Shown: positions 3,457 through 32,634 of the stretch, one piece after another
How positions within the stretch are numbered: position 1 is the stretch's first letter
Layout: every line of letters begins with the position of its first letter
Translations under genes and position numbers: made by a program
Origin: an uncultured Eudoraea sp.
GTDB lineage: Bacteria > Bacteroidota > Bacteroidia > Flavobacteriales > Flavobacteriaceae
Length of the DNA: 56,480 nucleotides
Assembly (NCBI RefSeq): GCF_947260015.1
Contig: NZ_CAMYOM010000021.1
Coordinates: 1 to 56,480, forward strand
Reading direction: 5' to 3'
The notes under the pieces: model-generated
Told to the model about the DNA's origin: nothing
Database searches by the model: none
The model's input: the letters and a program-made list of their open reading frames with translations, nothing else

Positions 3457-5187
3457 TTAGTTACCCGTTTTATTCCGCTGATAAGCCACTCTTTCGTGGC
3501 TGACGGACGCGTTCTCCGGATTGTCAAAGTAAGCGACTGCCTCCTTTATCTTAACAAACAGGAATTTTCTGGGTAGCACCTTACTTATCCCACTCCTGAA
3601 AATTATATCCCTGGTCGGACCTATAGCACCGGCAATATAGAACTGAATTCCATCATTCCTGATTTTTTTAATAACCTTTATCAGCATTCGGGTTGCCGTA
3701 GAATCTATATAATTAATAGCTTCAGCATTTAATATTACTCCTTTTAAATTATCCCCTTTAAGGTCCATATACTTATAAAGCTGATTTTTAAAATAATCTG
3801 AATTCCCAAAGTATAATTGGGAGTCAAAACGCACAATGAGCAGATCATCCCGCATGATAACTTCATCTTCAAAGCGTGAAATATTTTTATAATAGTCTGA
3901 ATCTTTTATTTTACTTAAAACTGCGAAATGAGGCTTGGAAGTTCTGTAAACCATCAACAATAGAGAGAGCAGGACCCCCGTTAGAATGCCCTGGGTAATT
4001 CCGATAAACAGGGTTATCAAAAACGTGAGTATCAAAACAATAAATTCATCTTTTCTATAGATCCACAAGCGTTTTGCATATTCTAAATCGATCAAACCAA
4101 AGACAGATACCATAATAATACTTGCCAGAATTGCATTTGGTAAATAATAAAAAAGAGGAGTAAGAAACATGAGCGTTACCAAAACCAGAAGTACAGTAAA
4201 CAATCCGGAGAGTGTACTTTTTGATCCGGATTCATCATTTATCGCAGACCTGGAAAAGCTTGCTGCAACAGGATAGGACTGAAAAAAGGAACCTAAAATA
4301 TTTGCAGAACCTAATGCCACTAATTCCTGATTGGCATCAATCAGGTCTTCTTCATTTTTCTCTTCAATACCTTTACCAATTGAAATAGCTTCAAGATATC
4401 CGATCAGAGCCAGTGTTAATGCAATTGGCCATAGTTGTCTTAAATTATCCATTTCAATAGCCGGTAAAACAAATCCGGGCAATCCTTTAGGAATTGTACC
4501 AACAATCTCAATGCCCAGCGATTCCATATTTAAAAAATATACTCCTAATATTCCAAGAACAACGATGATAAGAATCCCCGGAATATGTCTGCTCCATTTT
4601 TTAAAACCAATAAGCAGTATAATACCGACTAAACCTATAGCCAGATCATAAAAATTGGTCTCCGGAATTTTTTGAATGGCATTTAGAAAAATTCGGTGAA
4701 ACTGATTACTCCCTTCTATATCGACGCCAAGTAAGTGCTTTAACTGACTAAAAATTATAATCACGGCAGCCGCAGATGTAAATCCGCTGATTACCGGTTT
4801 GGCTAAAAAGGTAACCAGATACCCCATTTTAAAAATGCCTAAAACAAATTGAATGACACCCACCATAAAGGCGAGTAAAATAGCAAGAGCAATGTAGTTC
4901 TCCAATCCCACGATTGCCAGGGTACCCAAACCTGCGGCGACAAGCAAAGAATCCATGGCTACCGGCCCAATTGCAAGCGATCTTGATGTACCTAACAGCG
5001 CATACATAAGCACAGGCATTAAGGAGGCATACAAGCCGTATACCGGGGGGAGACCGGCTATCATGGCATATGCCATTCCTTGTGGAACAAGCACTATCGC
5101 TACACTAAAACCAGCGAGGATATCTTTTGGAAGCTCTTTCCTTTTATAGTTTTGCAGCGTTTGTAGAATTGGGAAAAATTTTCGCAT
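3457..5187 (-). CDS. SulP-family inorganic anion transporter with C-terminal STAS domain
   Basis: The protein has 576 residues from the ATG at 5187, which lies four bases after the crp stop; an in-frame TTG at 5202 would overlap crp and is less likely. It carries the SulP signature region (DILAGFSVAIVLVPQGMAYA, GLPPVYGLYAS) and about 12 hydrophobic segments up to residue about 430. A cytoplasmic STAS domain (about 440-560) contains INYIDSTATRML. SulP proteins move sulfate, bicarbonate or other anions. The neighbouring persulfide dioxygenase-like gene suggests sulfate, sulfite or thiosulfate here, but bicarbonate is not excluded. Confidence 0.9.
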   Translation of the reverse strand: MRKFFPILQTLQNYKRKELPKDILAGFSVAIVLVPQGMAYAMIAGLPPVYGLYASLMPVLMYALLGTSRSLAIGPVAMDSLLVAAGLGTLAIVGLENYIALAILLAFMVGVIQFVLGIFKMGYLVTFLAKPVISGFTSAAAVIIIFSQLKHLLGVDIEGSNQFHRIFLNAIQKIPETNFYDLAIGLVGIILLIGFKKWSRHIPGILIIVVLGILGVYFLNMESLGIEIVGTIPKGLPGFVLPAIEMDNLRQLWPIALTLALIGYLEAISIGKGIEEKNEEDLIDANQELVALGSANILGSFFQSYPVAASFSRSAINDESGSKSTLSGLFTVLLVLVTLMFLTPLFYYLPNAILASIIMVSVFGLIDLEYAKRLWIYRKDEFIVLILTFLITLFIGITQGILTGVLLSLLLMVYRTSKPHFAVLSKIKDSDYYKNISRFEDEVIMRDDLLIVRFDSQLYFGNSDYFKNQLYKYMDLKGDNLKGVILNAEAINYIDSTATRMLIKVIKKIRNDGIQFYIAGAIGPTRDIIFRSGISKVLPRKFLFVKIKEAVAYFDNPENASVSHERVAYQRNKTGN

Positions 5188-5191
5188 TACT

Positions 5192-5824
5192 CTATAATTC
5201 AATAACCTTTATATGGTTTCTGCTTAACTCTATTTTACCTTGTTTCTCCAAACTTTTTAAAAGCCTTGACACTACTACCCTTGAGGTATGTAAATCCTGG
5301 GCCACATCCTGATGTGTCGAATATATAACATCATTATTGGTAACCATTGCCCTGTCTTGAAGATACTTCATTATACGCTCATCCATTTTCATAAATGCCA
5401 AAGTATCTATCGTTTCCAGTAATTCTGACATTCTGGTGTGGTAACTATCCAAAATAAATTCTCTCCAGCTTTGGTATTTCACCATCCATTCATCCATTTT
5501 TTCTATAGGAATCATCAACAACTCTGAATCTGACTCCGCAATTGCTCTTATCTCACTTTTACCGGTCCCCAGGCAACAGGAAAATGTCATAGCACAGGTA
5601 TCTCCTTTTTCAATAAAATAAAGAAGCAATTCATCGCCCTGATCGTCTTCTCTGAGAATCTTTATTGCTCCACTAAAAATCAAGGGCATTGCAGTTATGT
5701 CCTGGCCAATATCCATTAATCGTTCCCCTTGTTTTATTTGTTTACATTTTCCTGTAGCTTCTATCTCATCCAAGAGTTCCGGTTCAAAAAGATAACCGTA
5801 ATGACGTTCCAACAGTACTCGCAT
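5192..5824 (-). CDS. Crp/Fnr-family transcriptional regulator
   Basis: The protein has 210 residues. A cyclic-nucleotide-binding-like beta-barrel (about 20-125) is followed by a dimer helix and a C-terminal winged helix-turn-helix (TRVVVSRLLKSLEKQGKIEL). The effector pocket does not show the canonical cAMP residues. There are cysteines at GKCKQ and in DTCAMTFSCCLG. This Cys pattern is familiar from flavobacterial Crp-like proteins and could sense a thiol or persulfide state; that is inference. It heads the SulP / persulfide dioxygenase / DUF2892 segment and is the likely local regulator. A palindrome at 3451-3464 is a possible binding site. Confidence 0.85.
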   Translation of the reverse strand: MRVLLERHYGYLFEPELLDEIEATGKCKQIKQGERLMDIGQDITAMPLIFSGAIKILREDDQGDELLLYFIEKGDTCAMTFSCCLGTGKSEIRAIAESDSELLMIPIEKMDEWMVKYQSWREFILDSYHTRMSELLETIDTLAFMKMDERIMKYLQDRAMVTNNDVIYSTHQDVAQDLHTSRVVVSRLLKSLEKQGKIELSRNHIKVIEL

Positions 5825-5878
5825 TTTTAGATTATTTGGATTAATACAAATTCTTATTTTTTTTAACAGCTTATTAAA

Positions 5879-6652
5879 TTATGGAATTAAAGTGACTTTA
5901 AAATTCCTGTCTTCATCTGTTAAATATTCAAAACCATCATGCAGCTGCATTTGATCTACTGCATAGGGGTAGAAGGTTATCGGTTCAATACATATCATAT
6001 TTGGCACCTCCGTCCACAACATAAAATGGTTGAAGCCTTCAGTTTTTATGCTTAACTTTTTTTGATCTTTCAATATAATACTTTGGCAATCCGCCACTTC
6101 AAGAGCTCTGCTCCCGGCTGCAAGAACAGAATCCAGTGAAATTGTCTGATCTTCCACAATAACAGTGGGATTATCAGTATATAGTTTAAACGCAGGATGA
6201 TACCCCAGCATAAAGGGCATATCTTTTTCTCCTGAAACCCTGAAGCTTATCTCCAGACTTTTTTCAGAGAGTTTAAAACTCTTGTAAAATTCAAAATTAA
6301 AGGGCCAGATAAGTAAGCGGGCAGTAGATTTATCAGGAAATTTGGAATTATTGATAACAGTCCCTGCCTTATAAGATTTTACGTATTGAGCTGTTGTTTC
6401 TGTACCCGAGAGAAGCTCGTAATCCAGTTCGCGCAATAATCCGTGCTGATCCTGAATGGCATTTCCTTTTGGTACATGCACCCGGAATCCGGCTTCAGCC
6501 GTTGGTCCGATTACAGGAAACATTTCAGTATCCGAGTTGCGCCAACCCGCACCCCCCTTTTGATGAATATATTCAAAGTCGTTTAGCCGGTAACTTACTA
6601 ATTCACCTTCCTCTATTAGGACTTTTGCGTTTCCTGAACCAAGATTTATCAT
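5879..6652 (-). CDS. Aldose 1-epimerase (mutarotase) family protein
   Basis: The protein has 257 residues. It resembles LacX/GalM-like beta-sandwich epimerases: WRNSDTEMFPVIGPT near the N-terminus, QDQHGLLRELD with a conserved His, MLGYHPAF with a second conserved His, and WTEVPNMICIEPI with the likely catalytic Glu region. The start is ATG at 6652. It follows the M20 peptidase stop by three bases, so the two are co-transcribed. The sugar substrate is unknown. No signal peptide is seen, so it should act in the cytoplasm. Confidence 0.8.
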   Translation of the reverse strand: MINLGSGNAKVLIEEGELVSYRLNDFEYIHQKGGAGWRNSDTEMFPVIGPTAEAGFRVHVPKGNAIQDQHGLLRELDYELLSGTETTAQYVKSYKAGTVINNSKFPDKSTARLLIWPFNFEFYKSFKLSEKSLEISFRVSGEKDMPFMLGYHPAFKLYTDNPTVIVEDQTISLDSVLAAGSRALEVADCQSIILKDQKKLSIKTEGFNHFMLWTEVPNMICIEPITFYPYAVDQMQLHDGFEYLTDEDRNFKVTLIP

Positions 6653-6655
6653 ATG

Positions 6656-7954
6656 CTATTGATTGATCAATCTATAAATAAGTACTGCCGTTCTCTTTGT
6701 AAGCTCTTCAATAGTGTTCAAATTTACAGTCTCTTCAGGCGTATGTGCTCCGCTTCCCATAGTACCTAAGCCATCAAGACAATCGACATATTTGGCCACA
6801 AAAGAAGTGTCTGCCGCTCCCCTTTTACCCGGATCATAGCCTATTACTTCACCCTGACCGAGGTCCAGGCTTACCTGATTTAGCTCTGCCAAGAGCCTGT
6901 TATTTCCCTCAGTAGGTACCATTGCCGGATAACTATCGGTAAAATTTATTGTTGCCGATGTATTAGGCAGGTTGTTTGCCACAATTTCCCTCATCTTATT
7001 TCTCGCATCTTCCTTTTGTTCTTCAGAAATAAAACGCAATCCTCCTTTTACCATGGCGGTTTGGGAGACAACATTACTTTTCCCGAAGACCTCTCCCTTG
7101 CCGGTAGACGCATCATAATCAACAAAAGTACCTCCCATGAGTATCCCGGGGTTAAAAGTCAGGTATTCCGCTCCACGAACTTCTTCATAAAATGCATTTA
7201 ATATTCTTGACATTTCAAAAATGGCTCCCGCACCAACCCGCTCATTAAATATACCCGAGCTATGGGCGCGTTTTCCTTCAACCTCTAATTCCCATCCGGA
7301 AGACCCTCTCCTTGCTACTGTAGCATAATTGAAGCCCGTAGAAGTCTCAAATCCGAGAGCAATATCGCTCCGCTTTGCCGCCTCAATCAAATCTTTTCTG
7401 CTTATATCGAGAGGTTTACCCGTACTTTCTTCATCACCTGTATATGCAACTATAATCTGAGCATCATTCAGCAATCCATTAGCGCGCAACGCTTTTAAAG
7501 CATAAAGAACAATAACATCACCACCTTTCATGTCATTGCCACCGGGCGCATGCGCAATACTGTCATTGACTCGCGTAAATTCCTGAAAAGGGCTGTTTTC
7601 TTCAAAAACGGTATCCAAATGACCAATCAGCAATAGTTTTTTACCCTTTGTACCTTCTGTTTCTGCAAAGAAGTGACCGGCCCTATTCATTTCTTCCGGC
7701 ATCTCAATCCATTGCGAATTAAAATCTAAATTTTCAAAGGCATTCTTAAAAACCATCCCTACTTCCCTTACACCTTTTGCATTTAAAGTTCCGCTGTTAA
7801 TATTGACAACATTTTCCAAAAAATCTATAGCTTCAGGATTATTGGCTTCAACCGTTTTAACCAATTTTCTTTCAACTTTTGAAAGCTTCTGGGCGGGTAA
7901 TTGAACACAAAAAAAGAGAACTACCAGTACGCTCATTAATCTTTTAAAATTCAT
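6656..7954 (-). CDS. Exported M20-family metallopeptidase (glutamate carboxypeptidase-like)
   Basis: The protein has 432 residues from ATG at 7954; an upstream in-frame TTG at 7966 adds only four residues. An N-terminal signal peptide (MNFKRLMSVLVVLFFCVQLPA) is followed by the catalytic domain. Zinc motifs are IGHLDTVFE, GGNDMKGGD and TGDEESTGK (the Glu-Glu pair holds the general base), with a later ligand region ending GSGAHTPEE. The middle section is the usual dimerisation lid. The closest known type is carboxypeptidase G2, which releases C-terminal glutamate or similar residues in the periplasm. It lies 19 bases after the PLP-enzyme gene and three before the epimerase gene. Confidence 0.85.
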   Translation of the reverse strand: MNFKRLMSVLVVLFFCVQLPAQKLSKVERKLVKTVEANNPEAIDFLENVVNINSGTLNAKGVREVGMVFKNAFENLDFNSQWIEMPEEMNRAGHFFAETEGTKGKKLLLIGHLDTVFEENSPFQEFTRVNDSIAHAPGGNDMKGGDVIVLYALKALRANGLLNDAQIIVAYTGDEESTGKPLDISRKDLIEAAKRSDIALGFETSTGFNYATVARRGSSGWELEVEGKRAHSSGIFNERVGAGAIFEMSRILNAFYEEVRGAEYLTFNPGILMGGTFVDYDASTGKGEVFGKSNVVSQTAMVKGGLRFISEEQKEDARNKMREIVANNLPNTSATINFTDSYPAMVPTEGNNRLLAELNQVSLDLGQGEVIGYDPGKRGAADTSFVAKYVDCLDGLGTMGSGAHTPEETVNLNTIEELTKRTAVLIYRLINQ

Positions 7955-24908: not shown

Positions 24909-26702
24909 CTATGGTATTATTTTTACAAAAACCAGGGTACTCACTTTTTCAGTAAGACCGTCATTTGAAACGCTAACATGTCTCAGTTTAATACTGCCAT
25001 CCATAGTAGGAACCCATTCCCAATCATCTGTAAGCTCAGCAAGAGGATCTACATCTCCGAAGTTCAGGTATACTTTAAGTTTACTATCGCTATTACGAAG
25101 CACTCGCCACAGTCCCGGATAAGAAACACCAGTTTCAGAAAGTGTAGTAGATATTAAGTGATTAGCCATGAAATTGAATGTGTAACCCATATAATTTTCA
25201 GTTTCATTCATTTCACCGTCTTCATAAAGGGCAACCATCCAGTCACCACCCATCATAAAGTTTCTGATCTCCGGAACATCACCATCGCTATTATTGTCAT
25301 CACATACTCTTTGCAATACTAGCTCATATCCGATATCTTCAACTTCAAACTTTAATCTGTCATTTCTCAGGTCAGATAATGGCCATTCAAAGTTTACTCC
25401 TGGTTCTGATCCCATGGTAATTGCCATTACAAGTCTTCCTTGTTCATTCATGGTAATTTCCCATGTTCCTTGAGATGTATTTTGACCATTACCAAGGGTT
25501 ACAGTACCTATTGGTAATCCTTCTGGCAAGAAGTTAAACTCATAGCCAAGTAATCTGTCAATTTCCTCACCCTGGTTTTTTACCTTTTTTATTACCCAGC
25601 TACATTCTTTCAAAATCTCTCTTAGGGTATCGGGATCGGTATTGAAAAGATCACAAGCGATATTCATTATAATCTTGTTTCCTCCTTCGGCGTAAAGTTT
25701 AATCTTACCTTCTCCCAGTTCGTATACGAACCATTCAAGGTTAAAGTCAACCAATACATCAAATTCAAGTTTAATAAGAACTCCATGGTCAGTAACTCGT
25801 GTACTCCAGGTACCGGTTATATTATTACCCATTCTGTCTTTTACGTTTACAGCACCATCTTCGGTAAAGTTCATTACGTATTCAAAGTACTGATCTGATT
25901 GATTTACTTCATCCCTTACAACCTCATGAATCAACCATGGACATTCTACCAATAGATTCTCTAAACGCTCCTGAGTAAAATCATCATCGTTATAATCATC
26001 ATCGTCATCCTCGTCACATGCTTCTTTAGCCATTTCAAGTGCATTGGCCAATTCAGCATTACTAATTACTTCAACTTTTGTACCATCGTAAAGTTCCAAG
26101 GCTACGGGAAAGTCAATCCCGATTAAGTCATTTTCGTCCAGACCGGCAAAAAATGTTCTAAGGTCTTTATCGGACCCTACAGTAACTGAACCTGTTTCAA
26201 CCTCATTGAGATCAAACGTGTATATCGTAATAGGATAAACAAAATCTATACATTCTATGTCATCATCCTGTCCACCTTCAATACATTCTTTGGCCAAATC
26301 GCGTAAGTGATCTATACCCTCAATTTCCATTGTGGTAAAATCAGCAAGCGTAATAACTATTGGGAAAATAATCTCAAGAATATCTTCATCACCTTCTAAT
26401 TGATCAAATATTTCTTCAATTAAATACAGGCCATCTTTAGATTCTATGGTGATCGTAACTCCATTTGCCTCAACAGTATAAGGAAATTCAAGAGCGAAAC
26501 AACTTGCTCCATCTACAATATTATCGAAGGAGCCGTCATTGGAAGCGGTATTTTCAATAAGCTTAGCTGTAGAGGAACTTGCAATTATAGTTTGCTGTTC
26601 GTCTGGTTGTGGTAATTCTTCAAATGCTTCCTGACAGGCATTAAATGAAAATGCCAGTACCAGAAGTAGGGTTTGCAGTGAATACTTAAAAAACTTTTTC
26701 AT
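24909..26702 (-). CDS. Repeat-containing lipoprotein under ECF control
   Basis: The protein has 597 residues and no family is recognised. The signal peptide ends in SFNAC (Cys23). Two tandem N-terminal repeats, 68-140 and 151-229, are each bounded by cysteines and share a pattern of F-x-YP, an FP[IV]-x-[IL] strand and an L-x-x-[AL]-x-x-x-C helix. A run of aspartates (about 229-242) is the hinge. Three C-terminal repeats follow (250-350, 364-467, 483-597), each with an opening W, [GE]Y-x-x-NF, G-[TL]-W and a later [LF]-x-W, like small lipocalin-type beta domains. The first two have paired cysteines. It is divergent from the sigma gene, and its promoter element matches the one before fecR. It may be a surface partner of the TonB receptor. 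Confidence 0.7.
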   Translation of the reverse strand: MKKFFKYSLQTLLLVLAFSFNACQEAFEELPQPDEQQTIIASSSTAKLIENTASNDGSFDNIVDGASCFALEFPYTVEANGVTITIESKDGLYLIEEIFDQLEGDEDILEIIFPIVITLADFTTMEIEGIDHLRDLAKECIEGGQDDDIECIDFVYPITIYTFDLNEVETGSVTVGSDKDLRTFFAGLDENDLIGIDFPVALELYDGTKVEVISNAELANALEMAKEACDEDDDDDYNDDDFTQERLENLLVECPWLIHEVVRDEVNQSDQYFEYVMNFTEDGAVNVKDRMGNNITGTWSTRVTDHGVLIKLEFDVLVDFNLEWFVYELGEGKIKLYAEGGNKIIMNIACDLFNTDPDTLREILKECSWVIKKVKNQGEEIDRLLGYEFNFLPEGLPIGTVTLGNGQNTSQGTWEITMNEQGRLVMAITMGSEPGVNFEWPLSDLRNDRLKFEVEDIGYELVLQRVCDDNNSDGDVPEIRNFMMGGDWMVALYEDGEMNETENYMGYTFNFMANHLISTTLSETGVSYPGLWRVLRNSDSKLKVYLNFGDVDPLAELTDDWEWVPTMDGSIKLRHVSVSNDGLTEKVSTLVFVKIIP

Positions 26703-26735: not shown

Positions 26736-26765
26736 TTAAAACAACTACATTTTAAAATACCCTAC
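26736..26765 (-). promoter_or_regulatory. Putative ECF sigma promoter of the repeat-lipoprotein gene
   Basis: On the minus strand GTAGGGT (26765-26759) is followed after 14 bases by TTGTTTTAA (26744-26736). The same two elements with identical spacing precede fecR at 27382-27411. The position, about 33 bases before the ATG at 26702, fits a promoter. Confidence 0.65.
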
Positions 26766-26767
26766 TC

Positions 26768-26796
26768 TTGTTTTAATTTTTTTTAAAATATCTTTG
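26768..26796 (+). promoter_or_regulatory. Housekeeping promoter of the ECF sigma gene (TTG-N18-TATCTTTG)
   Basis: TTG at 26768-26770 and TATCTTTG at 26789-26796 are 18 bases apart, a full match to the Bacteroidota primary-sigma pattern. The sigma ATG is 30 bases downstream. It lies directly beside the divergent ECF-type element. Confidence 0.65.
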
Positions 26797-26826
26797 AAAC
26801 AGAACCAACTGTAAGAACAAATAAAT

Positions 26827-27324
26827 ATGGACAACGTATGTGAGGAGGAAGTGTTCAGTAACCTCTTCAAAACCAATTCCAAAACGGTTTTTAACTATAT
26901 ATATTATAAATTCGGAAACGAAGAGAAAGCGTATGATGTAGTTCAGGAAGCTTTTGTTAAACTATGGGAGAATTGTGCTAAAGTAAGTCCTGAAAAAGCA
27001 AAGTCTTATGTATATACTATAGCAAATAACCTTTATTTAAATGTTATAAAAGCGGAAAAGGTCCGTTTAAAGTATGCAGACAGGACAAATAATAGCTCTT
27101 ACGAATCACCGGAATTCTTGCTGGAAGAAAAAGAGTTTAAAGAAAAGCTGGATAATGCCTTAAATAGTCTTCCTGAAAATCAGAGAACCACTTTTTTACT
27201 AAATAGGATTGATGGTAAAAAATATGCGGAAATAGCAGAGATGGAGGGTGTAAGTGTAAAAGCTATTGAAAAGCGTATGCATCTGGCCCTAAAAGCGCTA
27301 AGAGATCAAATAGAAGGGATATAG
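26827..27324 (+). CDS. ECF-type RNA polymerase sigma factor
   Basis: The protein has 165 residues with region 2 (YIYYKFGNEEKAYDVVQEAF, with VKLWEN) and region 4 (LPENQRTTFLLNRIDGKKYA followed by EIAEMEGVSVKAIEKRM), the usual two-domain ECF layout. It is of the kind paired with FecR regulators and TonB receptors in Bacteroidota. The fecR gene follows after about 105 bases that contain its own ECF-like promoter. The sigma gene has a housekeeping promoter and no copy of the ECF element, so direct autoregulation is not evident. Confidence 0.93.
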   Translation: MDNVCEEEVFSNLFKTNSKTVFNYIYYKFGNEEKAYDVVQEAFVKLWENCAKVSPEKAKSYVYTIANNLYLNVIKAEKVRLKYADRTNNSSYESPEFLLEEKEFKEKLDNALNSLPENQRTTFLLNRIDGKKYAEIAEMEGVSVKAIEKRMHLALKALRDQIEGI

Positions 27325-27381
27325 CTTTCATGTCCCTGGGAAGTAACTCCGGATGTTTTAGAATTATTTTTGTCATTGAGG

Positions 27382-27411
27382 GTAGGGTTTTATTAGAATT
27401 AATTGTTTTAA
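27382..27411 (+). promoter_or_regulatory. Putative ECF sigma promoter of the fecR-receptor operon
   Basis: GTAGGGT (27382-27388) and TTGTTTTAA (27403-27411) are 14 bases apart, the same as in the divergent lipoprotein promoter. FecR starts 20 bases downstream. Confidence 0.65.
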
Positions 27412-27430: not shown

Positions 27431-28342
27431 ATGCAAGAAAATTACTTAGCAAAATGGCTGAATAATGACCTCTCCGAGGAAGAACTCGCAGCATTTAAAA
27501 AATCTGCTGAGTACGCTTCTTATGAGAAGTTAATGCAGGTCAGCGGTACTTTGGAAGCGCCGGATTTTGATATAGATAAGGCATGGAATGAATTCAAAAA
27601 CAATCAACCGCAAAAAGATGTTAAAGTAATAAAGATGAATCCTATGCGCAGGTTATGGCGCATTGCAGCTGCTATCGTAGTAATTTTTGCAGCATCTTAC
27701 TTTTATATATCAACTTTAGATGAATCTGTTTCTACACAATATGCGGAACGCAATGAAGTGAGGCTGCCGGATAATTCTGAGATTATCTTAAATGCTGATT
27801 CCAGGATAACATACAGTGAAAAGAACTGGGCTAAAGAACGAAATATCTCCCTGCAAGGAGAAGCTTTCTTTAAGGTTGCCAAAGGACAAAAATTTACGGT
27901 TGCTACCAATGATGGTTTAGTTACCGTATTGGGTACTCAATTTAATGTAGAAAATAGAACAGGATTTTTTGAGGTTACCTGTTATGAAGGCCTGGTGAGT
28001 GTCATTTTTAATGGTAAAGAAACTAAACTTCCTGCCGGGAATTCTTTTATAGCAATTAACGGTAATGTATTGAATACAGAGTCGCCAGCAGAGACTACTC
28101 CTTCCTGGATGAGTAATGAAAGTACTTTTAATAGTATACCGTTGAATTATGTCCTGGATGAGTTTGAAAGACAATACAACATTGAGGTTAAAACTGAAAA
28201 TGTTAATCTTGAGCAATTATTTACCGGTTCTTTTAGCAACACAAACATAAATTTGGCGTTACAGAGTATTAGTACTCCTTCTCAGATCAAGTATGAATTA
28301 GAGGGGAACAACGTGCTATTCTATGCCGAAAACGCGCCATAA
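27431..28342 (+). CDS. FecR-family anti-sigma regulator
   Basis: The protein has 303 residues. A cytoplasmic N-terminal part (1-74) should bind the sigma factor. One membrane span covers about 76-93 (IAAAIVVIFAASYFYI). The periplasmic FecR domain (about 100-205) contains RNEVRLPDNSEIILNADS and NISLQGEAFFKVAKG. The C-terminal DUF4974 domain (about 228-300, FNSIPLNYVLDEFERQYNI) normally contacts the receptor STN domain. It relays receptor occupancy to the sigma factor. Its last 20 bases overlap the receptor gene, supporting coupled translation. Confidence 0.92.
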   Translation: MQENYLAKWLNNDLSEEELAAFKKSAEYASYEKLMQVSGTLEAPDFDIDKAWNEFKNNQPQKDVKVIKMNPMRRLWRIAAAIVVIFAASYFYISTLDESVSTQYAERNEVRLPDNSEIILNADSRITYSEKNWAKERNISLQGEAFFKVAKGQKFTVATNDGLVTVLGTQFNVENRTGFFEVTCYEGLVSVIFNGKETKLPAGNSFIAINGNVLNTESPAETTPSWMSNESTFNSIPLNYVLDEFERQYNIEVKTENVNLEQLFTGSFSNTNINLALQSISTPSQIKYELEGNNVLFYAENAP

Positions 28343-30911
28343 TAGTATACTACTTCTATACCTAATACTTTTGTTTGCCCTTTTTTCAGGCAGGGCTCAG
28401 GTAGATACCTTCCCAAAAAATATTAGTCTGGTTTCCTATATCCGGCAGTTAGAGAAGGATTTTGATGTAAAATTTTCTTATGTCGATGAGGACCTTCAAC
28501 CCTTACTTGTAGATACTCCTAAAGCTAGTTCTCTTGAGGGTATTTTAAGTGATATCCAGAATCAGACCCAATTGATCATTAAAAAGCTAAGTGAGCGCTA
28601 CTATACGCTCTCCAAAAGCACTACAGTAGATATATGTGCATTTGTCCTTGATAATTACAGTGAGAATACAACTTCAGGGGCATCAGTACAAGTATTGGGC
28701 AGTAGTATATCTACGGTAACAGACATGAATGGCCGGTTTTCTCTGGATAATATCCCCAGAAAAGCTTCCATTCGGATAAAACATATAGGTTATAAACCAA
28801 AATACGTAACCGCCGAGGATCTGGTAAGTAAAAACCCCTGTACCACCCTTTTATTCAGTTTAAACTATCAACAGCTGGATGAAGTTGTGGTTTATAAATT
28901 TTTGACAACAGGACTTACCAAACAAACTGATGGCAGCATTACTCTTAATACCGAAGAATTTGGAATTCTTCCGGGACTCTTAGAACCAGACGTTCTTCAA
29001 ACCGTACAAGCCCTTCCCGGAATAAAAAGTATAGATGAGACTGTGTCAGATATTAATATAAGAGGAGGGACTAACGATCAAAACCTTATTCTTTGGGATG
29101 ATATTAAAATGTATCAATCCGGTCATTTTTTCGGATTGATTTCTGCCTTTAACCCCTATTTGACTGAACATGTTACCATAATAAAAGATGGGACCAGCGC
29201 TGAATATGGAGATGGGGTTAGTGGAATAATTAATATGCAATCAAAAAATAAAATTGCGGGTAATTTCTTTGGTGGAGCGGGCATTAATATGATTAGCGGA
29301 GACCTCTATGGTCAGATCCCAATCTCAAATAAATTAGCTCTGCAAGTTTCTGCAAGACGTTCCATTACAGACTTAATCAAGACTCCAACCTATAAGGAGT
29401 TTTTTAAAAGAGCCTTTCAGGATACTGAGGTCGGAGGAGGTTCAAACCAAAATAGTAGTGTAGATATAAGCCAGGATGAAAAATTCTATTTCTATGATTT
29501 TACAGCCAAAGTCTTATATGATATCAATGAGCAACATAAGGCCCGATTTAGTTTTATTAATATCAACAATAACCTGGACTACACGGAAACGGCCGTAAGT
29601 TCAGCAAGAACAGACCAGAGCAATCTAAGTCAAACCAATCTTTCTTTTGGAGGAAATCTTGAAAGTGAATGGACAGACAGGTTCTCAACAAAGTTAAATG
29701 CTTATTATTCTAACTATAACCTTGATTCCGAAAACCGTATAAACAATGGACAACAAATACTTGATCAAAGAAATGAGGTAATAGAGACCTCTGTAAAATT
29801 AAATACGACTTACAAACTCACAACTAATTTAAACTGGCTCAATGGATTTCAATTTTCAGAAGTTGGTATCACCAATTTTACCGATGTTACACAACCACCT
29901 TACGAGAGCAACATAAAGGGGGTCATACGTACAAATTCGTTGTACAGTGAAATTTCCTATGCCTCGCCTAATAAAAGATTAGTTGCAAGAGGAGGCGGCC
30001 GATTGTATTATATTGTAAATGTGCAATATTTTGATGAAATTATTGTTGAGCCCCGATTGAACCTAAGTTATGAGCTCTACCCAAATCTTCAATTAGAAGT
30101 AAAAGGGGAGTTTAAGAACCAGACAACAAATCAAATAATTGATTTGGAACAGAATTTTCTGGGGATAGAAAAAAGGCGCTGGATGTTATCCAACAACAAG
30201 AATGATACAGTTCCGGGAAATCCAAATTTGCCCATAGTAAAAAGTAAACAAGGCTCTATGGGAATAAATTATGATAAGGGACAATGGTTTATTGGCCTGG
30301 AAGGGTATTATAAAGAAGTAAATGGCATAAGCACTGTAACACAGGGCTTTCAAAACCAAAATCAGTTCAATGGTGAAATTGGAAAATATGATGTGAAAGG
30401 CCTGGAGTTTTTGATAAATCACAAAAACGCACTTTTCAGTACGTGGTTGAGCTATGCCTATAATTTAAATAATTACACCTTTGAGGATATCGTTCCTAAT
30501 GTTTTTCCCAATAATCTGGACATCCGCCATACCCTGACCTTTGCAAGTACCTATACCTATGAAAATTTAAAAATTGGAATAGGCATTAATTACAGGACGG
30601 GTAAACCTTTTACAAAGCCCCAGGAAGGTGTAGACGGAATTGATTTTACAACCTTCCCTGTCTCAATCAATTATCAGGAACCAAACACCAGCAGACTCCC
30701 TGATTACCTAAGGGCTGACGCTTCCGCGATTTATAACTTTAATATTTCGAAAAGGGTAAAGGCAACAGCCGGCGCGTCCATCTTAAATATTCTGAACAAA
30801 GAAAACATATTGAATACCTACTACAGATTAAACGAGCAGGACGAAATAGTGACCATTGAAAGTGTTTCCTTAGGATTCACACCTAATGTGAGCTTCAGAA
30901 TAAGTTTCTAA
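28323..30911 (+). CDS. TonB-dependent outer-membrane receptor with STN signalling domain
   Basis: The protein has 862 residues. A signal peptide (ILLLYLILLFALFSGRAQ) is followed by an STN domain (about 30-100), a carboxypeptidase-regulatory-like beta domain (about 105-185, VTDMNGRFSLDNIP), the plug (about 195-305, VQALPGIKSIDETVSDINIR then GGTNDQNLI) and a beta-barrel ending in an aromatic residue (NVSFRISF). STN plus the upstream FecR and sigma genes mark a signal-transducing transporter of the FecA type. No SusD-like partner is present. The ligand is unknown; siderophores, peptides or glycans are all possible. Its end overlaps the convergent blh gene by four bases. Confidence 0.92.
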   Translation: MPKTRHNSILLLYLILLFALFSGRAQVDTFPKNISLVSYIRQLEKDFDVKFSYVDEDLQPLLVDTPKASSLEGILSDIQNQTQLIIKKLSERYYTLSKSTTVDICAFVLDNYSENTTSGASVQVLGSSISTVTDMNGRFSLDNIPRKASIRIKHIGYKPKYVTAEDLVSKNPCTTLLFSLNYQQLDEVVVYKFLTTGLTKQTDGSITLNTEEFGILPGLLEPDVLQTVQALPGIKSIDETVSDINIRGGTNDQNLILWDDIKMYQSGHFFGLISAFNPYLTEHVTIIKDGTSAEYGDGVSGIINMQSKNKIAGNFFGGAGINMISGDLYGQIPISNKLALQVSARRSITDLIKTPTYKEFFKRAFQDTEVGGGSNQNSSVDISQDEKFYFYDFTAKVLYDINEQHKARFSFININNNLDYTETAVSSARTDQSNLSQTNLSFGGNLESEWTDRFSTKLNAYYSNYNLDSENRINNGQQILDQRNEVIETSVKLNTTYKLTTNLNWLNGFQFSEVGITNFTDVTQPPYESNIKGVIRTNSLYSEISYASPNKRLVARGGGRLYYIVNVQYFDEIIVEPRLNLSYELYPNLQLEVKGEFKNQTTNQIIDLEQNFLGIEKRRWMLSNNKNDTVPGNPNLPIVKSKQGSMGINYDKGQWFIGLEGYYKEVNGISTVTQGFQNQNQFNGEIGKYDVKGLEFLINHKNALFSTWLSYAYNLNNYTFEDIVPNVFPNNLDIRHTLTFASTYTYENLKIGIGINYRTGKPFTKPQEGVDGIDFTTFPVSINYQEPNTSRLPDYLRADASAIYNFNISKRVKATAGASILNILNKENILNTYYRLNEQDEIVTIESVSLGFTPNVSFRISF

Positions 30912-31804
30912 TTTTTATTCAGCCCGGATATTACCAGGACATGGGGAAATGTAATTGCCGCAAGGAATGAGAATAAAAAGGGGATGAACTCCTGACTGCT
31001 GCCCTCCATAAAAAAAAATAATAGTACAAGTGTTATCACCGATGCCAACCAATAAATTACTGATGTCCTCAGATATTTTATAAAGTGTTTTCTGGACAAA
31101 TCCCCATACAGATAGGTAATCTGGTCTCCCAATGATGGGATAGCGTGCCACAAAATAAAAAATATGGCGAAAGCCCATAGTAACGAGGCGGTATTGAAAA
31201 TAATAAAGAAAACCAATAAATAAAATAATTCGAGCAAAATATTGCACTGTATCTGTTTATATTTTACCAGGAATAATAAAACAAATATAATCAATGATAT
31301 TCCCAGCATAATCTGGTAATAGGTATTGTTTATATATACCTTGCTGATGTCAAAAATAATATCGCTAACCTCCAAACTATGAGCTTCAAACAATAGAAAA
31401 AGGATTACAAGTCCGTAGGCAGTAAAAAGGAAGATTGAATAGCGTGAACTCCCATTAATTTTGGAGATCCAGTGCTGTTCACCAAAATGGTATGCACTGA
31501 AAAGAATAAATAAACCCAAAGCAATGCTCGGGAGAATATAAAACAAGCCAGCCACGCTAAGGACAAAAAAGACATAATAGGCAAGTATTCGTAAAAAATC
31601 ATAGGGTTTAGATTTCTTTTTAGCTTCAACCTGCAACAATTTAATGTCATTAGCACCATGAAGTATTCCAAAGGAAAGAATCAAAATATAAGCAAGTAAA
31701 TTTTCTACTGCATGCTCAAAATATACAGCTAGCCACAGTGAAAAAAATGTGGCAATAAGCGTGGCAGCTTGCAACTTTGTAAAATCTACCTCTTTATTTT
31801 GCAT
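30908..31804 (-). CDS. blh: Beta-carotene 15,15'-dioxygenase, Brp/Blh family
   Basis: The protein has 298 residues, very hydrophobic with about seven to eight membrane segments. Conserved histidines are in FGILHGANDIKL, AYHFGEQHW, LWHAIPSLGDQ and FPHVLVISGL, as in Blh, an iron-dependent membrane enzyme that cleaves beta-carotene to two retinals. It is divergent from the proteorhodopsin gene across 98 bases, so the chromophore maker and the apoprotein are side by side. A perfect -7 box, TAATTTTG, is on the minus strand at 31831-31824, 20 bases before the start, without a well-placed TTG. Beta-carotene synthesis genes are not in the window. Confidence 0.92.
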   Translation of the reverse strand: MQNKEVDFTKLQAATLIATFFSLWLAVYFEHAVENLLAYILILSFGILHGANDIKLLQVEAKKKSKPYDFLRILAYYVFFVLSVAGLFYILPSIALGLFILFSAYHFGEQHWISKINGSSRYSIFLFTAYGLVILFLLFEAHSLEVSDIIFDISKVYINNTYYQIMLGISLIIFVLLFLVKYKQIQCNILLELFYLLVFFIIFNTASLLWAFAIFFILWHAIPSLGDQITYLYGDLSRKHFIKYLRTSVIYWLASVITLVLLFFFMEGSSQEFIPFLFSFLAAITFPHVLVISGLNKN

Positions 31805-31902
31805 ATTTTGGAATATTGTCTAGCAAAATTAACATATCCTTAAACAAATTATGTTTAACTTTTCATACTTTTATATCCACAAAATTAACTAAATAAATTC
31901 GT
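31805..31902. promoter_or_regulatory. Shared divergent promoter region of blh and proteorhodopsin
   Basis: These 98 AT-rich bases must hold both promoters. For blh the best candidate is TAATTTTG (31831-31824, minus). For the rhodopsin the best is TACTTTTA at 31866-31873, seven of eight matches, 30 bases before its ATG. Neither has a good -33 TTG, so a special activator is possible. Confidence 0.4.
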
Positions 31903-32634
31903 ATGGAAAATTTTTTATTATCATTCCCTTTGATTGCCAAACTAGCCACCAATGATTATGTAGGCTTTACCTTTTTTGTAGGTTGTATGGCTATGATGGC
32001 AGCTGCTGCCTTTTTCTTTTTATCAATGAATAGTTTTGACAAAAAGTGGAGAACCTCAATCCTTGTTTCCGGATTAATCACTTTTATTGCCGCAGTGCAC
32101 TACTGGTACATGCGCGATTATTGGGCAGATTTCGGAGAATCGCCTACTTTCTTCCGTTATGTAGACTGGATCCTTACCGTCCCGCTGATGTGTGTGGAAT
32201 TCTTTTTAATCTTAAAAGTTGCGGGAGCTAAAAGATCTCTTATGTGGAGACTTATTCTTCTTTCCGTAATCATGTTGGTTACAGGTTATTTGGGAGAAGC
32301 CGTTTACAGAGATGCCGCATGGATATGGGGTCTTATTTCCGGTATCGCATACTTTATTATTGTTTATGAGATCTGGTTCGGAACGGCCAAGAAGCTCGCC
32401 GTAAAAGCCGGAGGAGCCGTATTACAGGCCCATAAAATGCTTTGCTGGTTTGTCCTTGTTGGATGGGCTATCTATCCGCTGGGCTATATGGCTGGAACTC
32501 CAGGATGGTATGAAGGTTTATTTGGCGGTTTATCAATGGATGTGGTTTACAACATTGGAGACGCAATTAATAAAATTGGATTTGGCCTGGTAGTCTACAA
32601 CCTTGCGGTAGTTGCTACTGAAGAGAAAGCCTAA
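31903..32634 (+). CDS. Proteorhodopsin, light-driven proton pump
   Basis: The protein has 243 residues and seven membrane helices. Key residues by position here: Lys224 (retinal Schiff base, in DAINKIGFG), Asp220 (second counterion), Asp88-Thr92-Glu99 in RYVDWILTVPLMCVEF (the DTE motif of outward proton pumps), Arg85 and His66 (the counterion-linked His of proteorhodopsins). The spectral-tuning residue is Met96, as in green-absorbing flavobacterial proteins. Gly143 in IWGLIS aligns with Trp138 of bacteriorhodopsin and the antenna-window glycine of xanthorhodopsin, so a carotenoid antenna is possible. The protein sits in the inner membrane and adds to the proton gradient under light. Confidence 0.96.
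   Translation: MENFLLSFPLIAKLATNDYVGFTFFVGCMAMMAAAAFFFLSMNSFDKKWRTSILVSGLITFIAAVHYWYMRDYWADFGESPTFFRYVDWILTVPLMCVEFFLILKVAGAKRSLMWRLILLSVIMLVTGYLGEAVYRDAAWIWGLISGIAYFIIVYEIWFGTAKKLAVKAGGAVLQAHKMLCWFVLVGWAIYPLGYMAGTPGWYEGLFGGLSMDVVYNIGDAINKIGFGLVVYNLAVVATEEKA

Follow-up and report, generated by a model that had tools for sequence, protein, structure and literature searches.

Conserved paired putative ECF-type promoters at a FecI-FecR-FecA-like locus of Eudoraea and a candidate regulon that includes a small RNA family

Results

Two Copies of a Bipartite Element Flank an ECF Sigma Factor Gene

The stretch of DNA analyzed here, referred to as the window, comprises 56,480 nt of contig NZ_CAMYOM010000021.1 from an uncultured Eudoraea sp. 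(assembly GCF_947260015.1, the home genome). It harbors a gene for an extracytoplasmic function (ECF) sigma factor, which is followed by genes for a FecR-type anti-sigma regulator and a TonB-dependent receptor and preceded by a divergently oriented lipoprotein gene (Table 1). The original prediction for this locus, made from the sequence of the window alone, was that two copies of a bipartite element, GTAGGGT-N14-TTGTTTTAA, are the promoters of the fecR-receptor operon and of the lipoprotein gene, and that both are switched on by the sigma factor when FecR releases it. Both blocks were present at the predicted positions and on the predicted strands without a single mismatch. Both also lie at promoter distance from an ATG, as the start codon of fecR (27431) follows its site after 19 nt and that of the lipoprotein gene (26702) after 33 nt. 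Judged by the comparisons described below, the paired blocks look like conserved promoters of the ECF sigma factor that is encoded between them.

The exact element occurred only twice in the home genome (98 contigs, 3.42 Mb), both times at this locus. When up to three mismatches were allowed, the window contained four matches as compared to 1.13 ± 1.15 in 100 shuffled sequences. Since five of the shuffles reached four matches as well, this count was not striking, and the only exact matches were the two sites. A whole-genome scan with mismatches, which had been suggested as a check, confirmed the two exact sites and gave only noise at up to three mismatches. As it returned 67 matches versus 103 for the reversed control, loose mismatch scanning was the wrong test. 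The original pattern was replaced by a relaxed motif, GTAGGGTWTT-N12-TGTNNTAW, which was derived from the best matches. This motif had six exact sites in the home genome, none with one mismatch and nine with two (reversed control: 17 with up to two mismatches); no exact site of the reversed motif was found there. Across 149 genomes of Flavobacteriaceae we detected 64 exact sites in 39 genomes, while the reversed control gave 2 sites.

Conservation of the pair was analyzed in the best 80 of at least 426 loci with sigma relatives, derived from Eudoraea, Maribacter, Allomuricauda, Zobellia and others. The divergent site was searched with the pattern GTAGGGTWTT-N12-TGTTWTAD, permitting a change of ±1 base in spacing. 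Only the best match per region was considered, which inflates match scores and cannot create constant positions. A divergent site was found in all 80 loci (41 with no, 32 with one and 7 with two mismatches), always with identical spacing. The fecR site was present in 76 of the 77 testable loci (29 with no, 35 with one, 8 with two, 2 with three and 2 with four mismatches). L227, L238 and L280 were excluded here because their contigs stop within 113 nt after the sigma gene; the sites of L223 and L257 were counted after widening of the scan window, and L219 had no fecR site within 2.5 kb. GTAGGGT was invariant at both sites (80/80 and 76/76), TGTT likewise (80/80 and 76/76), and the spacer drifted. 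The distance from site to start codon was 18–20 nt for fecR in 75 of 76 loci and 28–34 nt for the lipoprotein gene in 80 of 80. In all 80 loci the divergent gene was homologous to the window lipoprotein. The putative −35 box is GTAGGGTWTTT and the putative −10 box TTGTTWTA, to which the sigma factor would bind. The claim that the sigma/FecR pair controls both the receptor operon and its divergent lipoprotein neighbor was strongly supported by this conservation and by a second unit of the same layout (see below). The predicted small size of the regulon did not hold up, as the candidate regulon reaches beyond the locus.

Table 1. Features of the locus (coordinates of the window).
Feature	Coordinates	Strand	Remarks
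Putative ECF-type promoter of the divergent lipoprotein gene, GTAGGGT-N14-TTGTTTTAA	26736..26765	-	exact; up to 2 mismatches in 80/80 related loci
Putative ECF-type promoter of the fecR-receptor operon, GTAGGGT-N14-TTGTTTTAA	27382..27411	+	exact; 76/77 testable related loci
−7 box TATCTTTG, housekeeping-type promoter of the sigma gene	26789..26796	+	TAnnTTTG up to 80 nt from the sigma start in 78/80 related loci
ECF sigma factor, 165 amino acids (aa)	26827..27324	+	Sigma70_r2 and r4_2
FecR-type anti-sigma regulator, 303 aa	27431..28342	+	FecR and FecR_C above Pfam cut-offs
TonB-dependent receptor, 862 aa, 20-nt overlap with fecR	28323..30911	+	CarbopepD_reg_2 and Plug
Receptor N-terminal signalling (STN-like) domain, predicted	28377..28646	+	AlphaFold2 (AF2) model, predicted local distance difference test (pLDDT) 79.7; best PDB match 1zzv
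Lipoprotein, 597 aa, predicted lipocalin-like C-terminal domains	24909..26702	-	AF2 model, pLDDT 74.4, predicted template modelling score (pTM) 0.41

The Sigma Gene Has a Housekeeping-Type −7 Box

For the sigma gene a clean housekeeping promoter (TTG-N18-TATCTTTG) had been proposed. The −7 box was kept in 78 of the 80 related loci, and its consensus TAnnTTTG corresponds to the Bacteroidota −7 box as given in the accessible part of PMC7366714. The TTG, located 18 nt upstream of TATCTTTG in the home genome, was present at a distance of 17–21 nt in only 9 of 78 loci. Its absence is not surprising, since no −33 motif was found for F. johnsoniae according to the same part of that source (PMC7366714). 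The −7 box and the GTAGGGT of the divergent site were separated by 21–24 nt in 79 of 80 loci, so that the two promoters are close enough to overlap. When bound to the lipoprotein promoter, activated sigma factor may hinder transcription of its own gene and would in this way exert feedback on its synthesis.

Related Sigma Factors and the −35 Box

All 24 fetched loci with sigma relatives of at least 50% identity (L100–L123) had at least one motif with up to two mismatches near the sigma gene. The six loci with relatives of 24–34% identity (L124–L129) yielded one match with two mismatches, about 490 nt beyond the sigma gene. When the recognition helix was compared for 18 of the 24 loci, GTAGGA occurred together with KRIYGAL (6/6) and GTAGGG with KRM or KRIS (12/12); this comparison was post hoc, the sequences are related, and L119 from the KRIYGAL group also has a GTAGGG candidate.

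A second sigma/fecR unit, which contains the only other FecR_C gene of the home genome, is located at G000:C16 (L070), 3600–6700. The recognition helix of its sigma factor reads YRIYTAF. TCAGGAA-N14-TTGTTATAT was found before its fecR gene. A divergent gene of this unit, which shows homology to the window lipoprotein with 31.7% identity (E 7e-63), is preceded by TCAGGAG-N14-TTGTTTTAC. The two units were alike in layout and −10 box (TTGTT) and differed in the −35 box.

Exact relaxed sites were present in 18 of 21 genomes with a close sigma ortholog (E ≤ 1e-60 in the 149-genome set), as compared to 21 of 128 genomes without such an ortholog (p = 7e-10 with genomes treated as unrelated). Several of the exact sites in ortholog-less genomes precede other fecR genes. 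The related sigma factors probably share the same motif.

A Candidate Regulon beyond the Locus

The home genome has four further exact relaxed sites, all of them intergenic. Three have counterparts in other Eudoraea genomes, and their putative targets are a 61-aa membrane protein, a 27-aa hydrophobic peptide and a gene-less short transcript with a strong terminator. No counterpart of the fourth site (C6:37340) was recognized in other Eudoraea genomes. Compared over six genomes including the home genome, the 27-aa peptide showed 5–8 synonymous and 5–9 nonsynonymous codon changes relative to the home copy and is therefore under only modest constraint. Outside the home genome, 37 of the 58 exact sites precede fecR (9), a lipoprotein gene (11), a gene for a 55–61-aa membrane protein (8) or the RNA described below (9), as classified by reading. 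The putative regulon is thus larger than the sigma locus and includes small membrane proteins and an RNA.

Exact relaxed sites ahead of other lipoprotein genes were seen in two genomes of the genus (L175 and L176 in G153, L177 in G155). Also in two genomes of the genus, a site GTAGGGTATT-N12-TGTTATAC is located before a further gene (L178, L179). This gene encodes a lipoprotein in L178; part of the stretch that follows the site in L179 reads N.

A Conserved RNA Occurs Together with the Sigma Factor

The RNA has a predicted length of about 100–190 nt, a predicted intrinsic terminator and the near-invariant core UUCAUGUGUUUAGGUUGG. We searched 397 genomes of the family for the core TTCATGTGTTTAGGTTGG with up to one mismatch and for the sigma ortholog, and found them in 53 and 69 genomes, respectively. 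Both were present in 50 genomes, only the sigma ortholog in 19, only the core in 3 and neither in 325 (p = 8e-44, which is not to be taken literally since the genomes are related). Tallied by genus, core and sigma ortholog were present in 32 and 42 of 237. The GTAGGGT promoter was found with up to two mismatches at 28 of 28 core loci from sigma-bearing genomes, 39–113 nt upstream of the core. It was absent at the core loci of the sigma-less genomes G107 and G336, which were 2 of the 30 loci fetched. The promoter was also present at the RNA of G018, G032 and G001, so that 31 of the 50 genomes with core and sigma ortholog were examined, all with a positive result.

An alignment of 27 of 35 copies, omitting six long and two Eudoraea copies, showed the order conserved 5' AAATTGCTATGAAAAAG, variable middle, core, TTTTGATTT and terminator. 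Within the terminator, 8 of 11 predicted pairs were changed on both sides. The fold predicted for the copy of the home genome, which includes the long terminator hairpin (z −3.9), leaves the core unpaired. We applied a covariance model built from this alignment to the 19 sigma-bearing genomes lacking the core and to 24 sigma-less genomes. At 45 bits or more, a line that was set after seeing the scores, the model matched in 14 of 19 sigma-bearing and in none of the 24 sigma-less genomes. The GTAGGGT promoter was present at 13 of these 14 RNAs, in G108 further upstream; G056 (48.6 bits, without GTAGGGT site) was excluded from the tally. In total, the RNA was counted in 63 of 69 sigma-bearing genomes, and the promoter was present in 44 of 44 of those examined.

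Matches of the model at 33–41 bits, in sigma-less genomes or elsewhere, were not counted. The core matches in genomes without sigma ortholog (G098, G107, G336) had one mismatch each, and none of them matched the covariance model. A search of Rfam 15 with seven loci, four of them with the RNA (L069, L156, L158, L174), gave no match at the gathering score and six matches below it. An interpretation of the core as a small open reading frame was rejected, as the frame was not conserved.

Some copies deviate in arrangement. G075 (L408/L389) and G317 (L407/L392) have tandem copies 30–40 nt apart, with the GTAGGGT promoter before the first copy only. Some genera (L319, L320, L321) have an extra hairpin-like stretch of the CTTCATCCT...AGGATGAAG type between the 5' end and the core. 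Four model matches that were inspected, in G056 (L391), G027 (L395), G400 (L403) and G012 (L394), resemble a related RNA with a similar 5' end (TGCTRTGAA), the core TTGGTTAGGTTG and a terminator. It has no GTAGGGT site, and TATCTTT-like housekeeping boxes are located upstream of it in G056, G027 and G400.

Candidate Targets of the RNA

The predicted features of the RNA include both an ECF-type promoter and an intrinsic terminator, as in ECF-dependent trans-acting small RNAs (sRNAs) of the RybB/MicA type. Base pairing in trans via the near-invariant core is its most likely mode of action. We searched 10 Eudoraea genomes for the reverse complement of the core. This revealed two candidates. One is the start of a Spy/LTXXQ-like gene, where 7 genomes had the exact string and 4 of the loci were inspected; LTXXQ itself scored below the Pfam cut-off. 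The other is a permease leader in 5 genomes (all inspected). TAARCACATGAA was present at the start codon of the candidate Spy/LTXXQ-like gene in 4 of 11 RNA-bearing genomes versus 0 of 14 other genomes, as counted by eye. We consider this putative start-codon target a lead only.

Proteins of the Locus

The locus shows the FecIRA-type feature of an ECF sigma factor adjoining a FecR regulator. The sigma factor scored just below the cut-off of the closest NCBIfam, TIGR02985 (Bacteroidetes sigma subfamily 1; 125.3 bits at a cut-off of 126.4), and is only a near relative of it. The N-terminal region of the receptor was modelled by AF2 from an alignment of 23 receptors. The best PDB fold match of the model was the FecA signalling domain 1zzv, with TM-scores of 0.65/0.73, probability 1.00 and E 0.013, and was followed by domains of FpvA, a Parabacteroides anti-sigma protein, PupR, PupA and PupB. 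The matches to the FecA, FpvA, PupA and PupB domains had probabilities of 0.98–1.00 and E values of 0.013 and above; no PDB fold match of this domain was below E 0.001, and a profile search of PDB sequences with the N-terminal region gave nothing relevant. The domain is predicted to fold like the FecA signalling domain. In the model of the lipoprotein, the predicted C-terminal lipocalin-like units had 4nw4, 4kh8, 5byp and 4qrl among their PDB matches.

Discussion

We propose, with a probability of about 0.8, that the locus encodes a signalling unit of the FecI-FecR-FecA type, whose sigma factor reads both local promoters and an unlinked regulon that includes the RNA. Comparison shows the promoter boxes and their link to sigma-bearing genomes, the RNA family and the fold of the signalling domain. 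That the sigma factor binds the boxes, that FecR releases it, that a ligand is sensed and that the RNA acts in trans on particular targets is our inference. The housekeeping promoter would provide the sigma factor, and FecR would hold it at the membrane. The ligand-loaded TonB receptor would contact FecR through its N-terminal signalling domain, and the sigma factor would be freed. It would then read GTAGGGTWTTT/TTGTTWTA promoters in front of the fecR-receptor operon, the divergent lipoprotein gene and the unlinked genes, which would comprise those for small membrane proteins, for the conserved RNA and, in some species, for other lipoproteins. The RNA would repress or tune mRNAs through its core. 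We lean slightly towards a more far-reaching version, in which a FecI/FecR/TonB-type sigma factor of Bacteroidota has acquired its own conserved trans-acting RNA and a co-regulated 55–61-aa membrane protein, in parallel with sigma-E and RybB/MicA, paralogous units are kept apart by a readable −35 code (GTAGGG, GTAGGA, TCAGGA) on a common TTGTT −10 box, and the activated sigma factor occludes its own housekeeping promoter.

Several results weigh against the proposed unit or parts of it. The other 21 of the 58 exact sites outside the home genome precede genes for secreted proteins or lipoproteins or unclear genes, and the motif is not exclusive to this sigma factor. Exact relaxed sites occur in 39 genomes, and since 21 of these, which account for 28 of the 64 sites, are without a close ortholog, the motif marks a clade of related sigma factors and not this ortholog alone. 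At E ≤ 0.01 the RNA model matched 17 of 19 sigma-bearing genomes and also 11 of 24 sigma-less genomes, the latter weakly (at most 40.9 bits). Six of the 69 sigma-bearing genomes were without an accepted RNA. In G155, a Eudoraea assembly of 82% completeness, the RNA and its promoter were present and no sigma ortholog was found, likely due to a gap in the assembly. Duplex energies of the Spy/LTXXQ-like candidate, a gene present in 112 genomes, showed no difference between RNA-bearing and other genomes (11 versus 14, p = 0.29; 29 of 30 fetched loci were used, four more of them being sigma-only, and L370 was omitted). The E value of 0.013 for the FecA fold match also belongs here, as does the result of Pfam, which made no STN call in the first 126 residues of the receptor and gave a weak FecR_C-like match (E 0.034).

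The most serious alternative, possible in our view and yet rather doubtful, is that several related ECF sigma factors read the motif and that some of the unlinked sites, possibly including that of the RNA, belong to a different or shared regulon. The home genome has 25 matches to TIGR02985, none above the cut-off, sigma factors of 48–57% identity have near-identical sites, and the genomes with exact sites and no close ortholog point in the same direction. However, the RNA tracks the ortholog, which is present in 50 of the 53 core-bearing genomes; two of the remaining three lack the promoter, and none fits the model. Moreover, the only other FecR_C locus of the home genome uses a different −35 box. 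A long, bipartite motif with few copies would also be expected of an operator for a dedicated transcription factor, and the boxes could be read in this way instead of as a sigma promoter. We regard this as very unlikely, given the fixed orientation and the near-constant distance to the ATG (18–20 and 28–34 nt), a −35 box that varies from one paralogous sigma/fecR locus to another next to a constant −10 box, and the GTAGGA/GTAGGG variants that track the recognition helix, with the post hoc nature of this comparison and the exception of L119 kept in mind.

There is similarly little to be said for the terminator-ended transcript being a small coding mRNA. Short ATG frames do exist near its 5' end and in the core. 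Those near the 5' end, however, are interrupted in several species, and in others the ATG of the core is either missing or followed by a shifted frame. The T-run behind the core also varies in length. That the pair arose from chance matches in AT-rich DNA, an idea to which the noisy fuzzy matching of the original pattern lent some color, can be given practically no weight: it was already refuted by the conservation in 80 of 80 loci, and the excess of exact relaxed sites over the control also stands against it.

Cell-surface signalling by FecI-FecR-FecA is known from E. coli, and the Pup and Fpv systems are its counterparts in Pseudomonas. The Eudoraea locus resembles FecI-FecR-FecA in its adjacent genes for ECF sigma factor, FecR and a TonB receptor with a predicted FecA-like N-terminal domain, and in the putative sigma-type promoter before the receptor operon. 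It differs in that a separate putative promoter, located behind the sigma gene, serves the fecR and receptor genes, in the divergent lipoprotein gene (80/80 loci), in a putative regulon with an RNA and small membrane proteins and in other −35 and −10 boxes. Sigma-E of enterobacteria is an envelope ECF sigma factor with the sRNAs RybB, MicA and MicL and is controlled by RseA/DegS. The combination of an ECF sigma factor with a short, terminator-ended RNA that has a strongly conserved segment is common to both systems, by description and not by sequence, whereas control here would be exerted by FecR/TonB instead of RseA/DegS.

For Flavobacterium psychrophilum, the accessible part of PMC9723704 describes the flavobacterial ECF-type promoter class SM6, which includes a putative regulatory RNA, the sRNA Rfp11. 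The system described here likewise has flavobacterial ECF-type promoters with a putative regulatory RNA among them. Compared with SM6 as described in that part, the −10 core is TGTT (80 + 76 sites) and the targets differ; because of its TGTT box the motif is not SM6. The same source part presents Rfp18, a conserved sRNA of F. psychrophilum with strong structure, which pairs through its third stem-loop and affects metalloprotease mRNAs (PMC9723704). Rfp18 and our RNA are both conserved flavobacterial sRNAs; they were compared by description, and no link of Rfp18 to a GTAGGGT promoter was found in that part of the source. ECF motifs of Bacteroidota were scarce in 2020, with one for EcfO of B. 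fragilis and none for the ECF sigma factors of B. thetaiotaomicron, according to the accessible part of PMC7366714. Our literature searches, mostly outside subscription papers, found no description of this motif or RNA. While the signalling architecture is known, the promoter code and the RNA family were not found described.

An exact ECF motif with a candidate regulon and natural paralog variants makes sigma-promoter specificity directly testable. For the conserved RNA family, which has no match in Rfam 15 at the gathering score, both an inducer and a pairing segment are predicted, and our searches of the literature found little on regulatory RNAs of marine flavobacteria. The system for surface sensing appears to have a regulatory RNA of its own under its control.

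Neighboring Genes

The stretch beyond the receptor gene (30908–32634 of the window) contains two further genes. A BCD gene (beta-carotene 15,15'-dioxygenase, Brp/Blh-like) is located on the minus strand at 30908–31804, convergent with the receptor gene, and is followed by a bacteriorhodopsin-like gene at 31903–32634.
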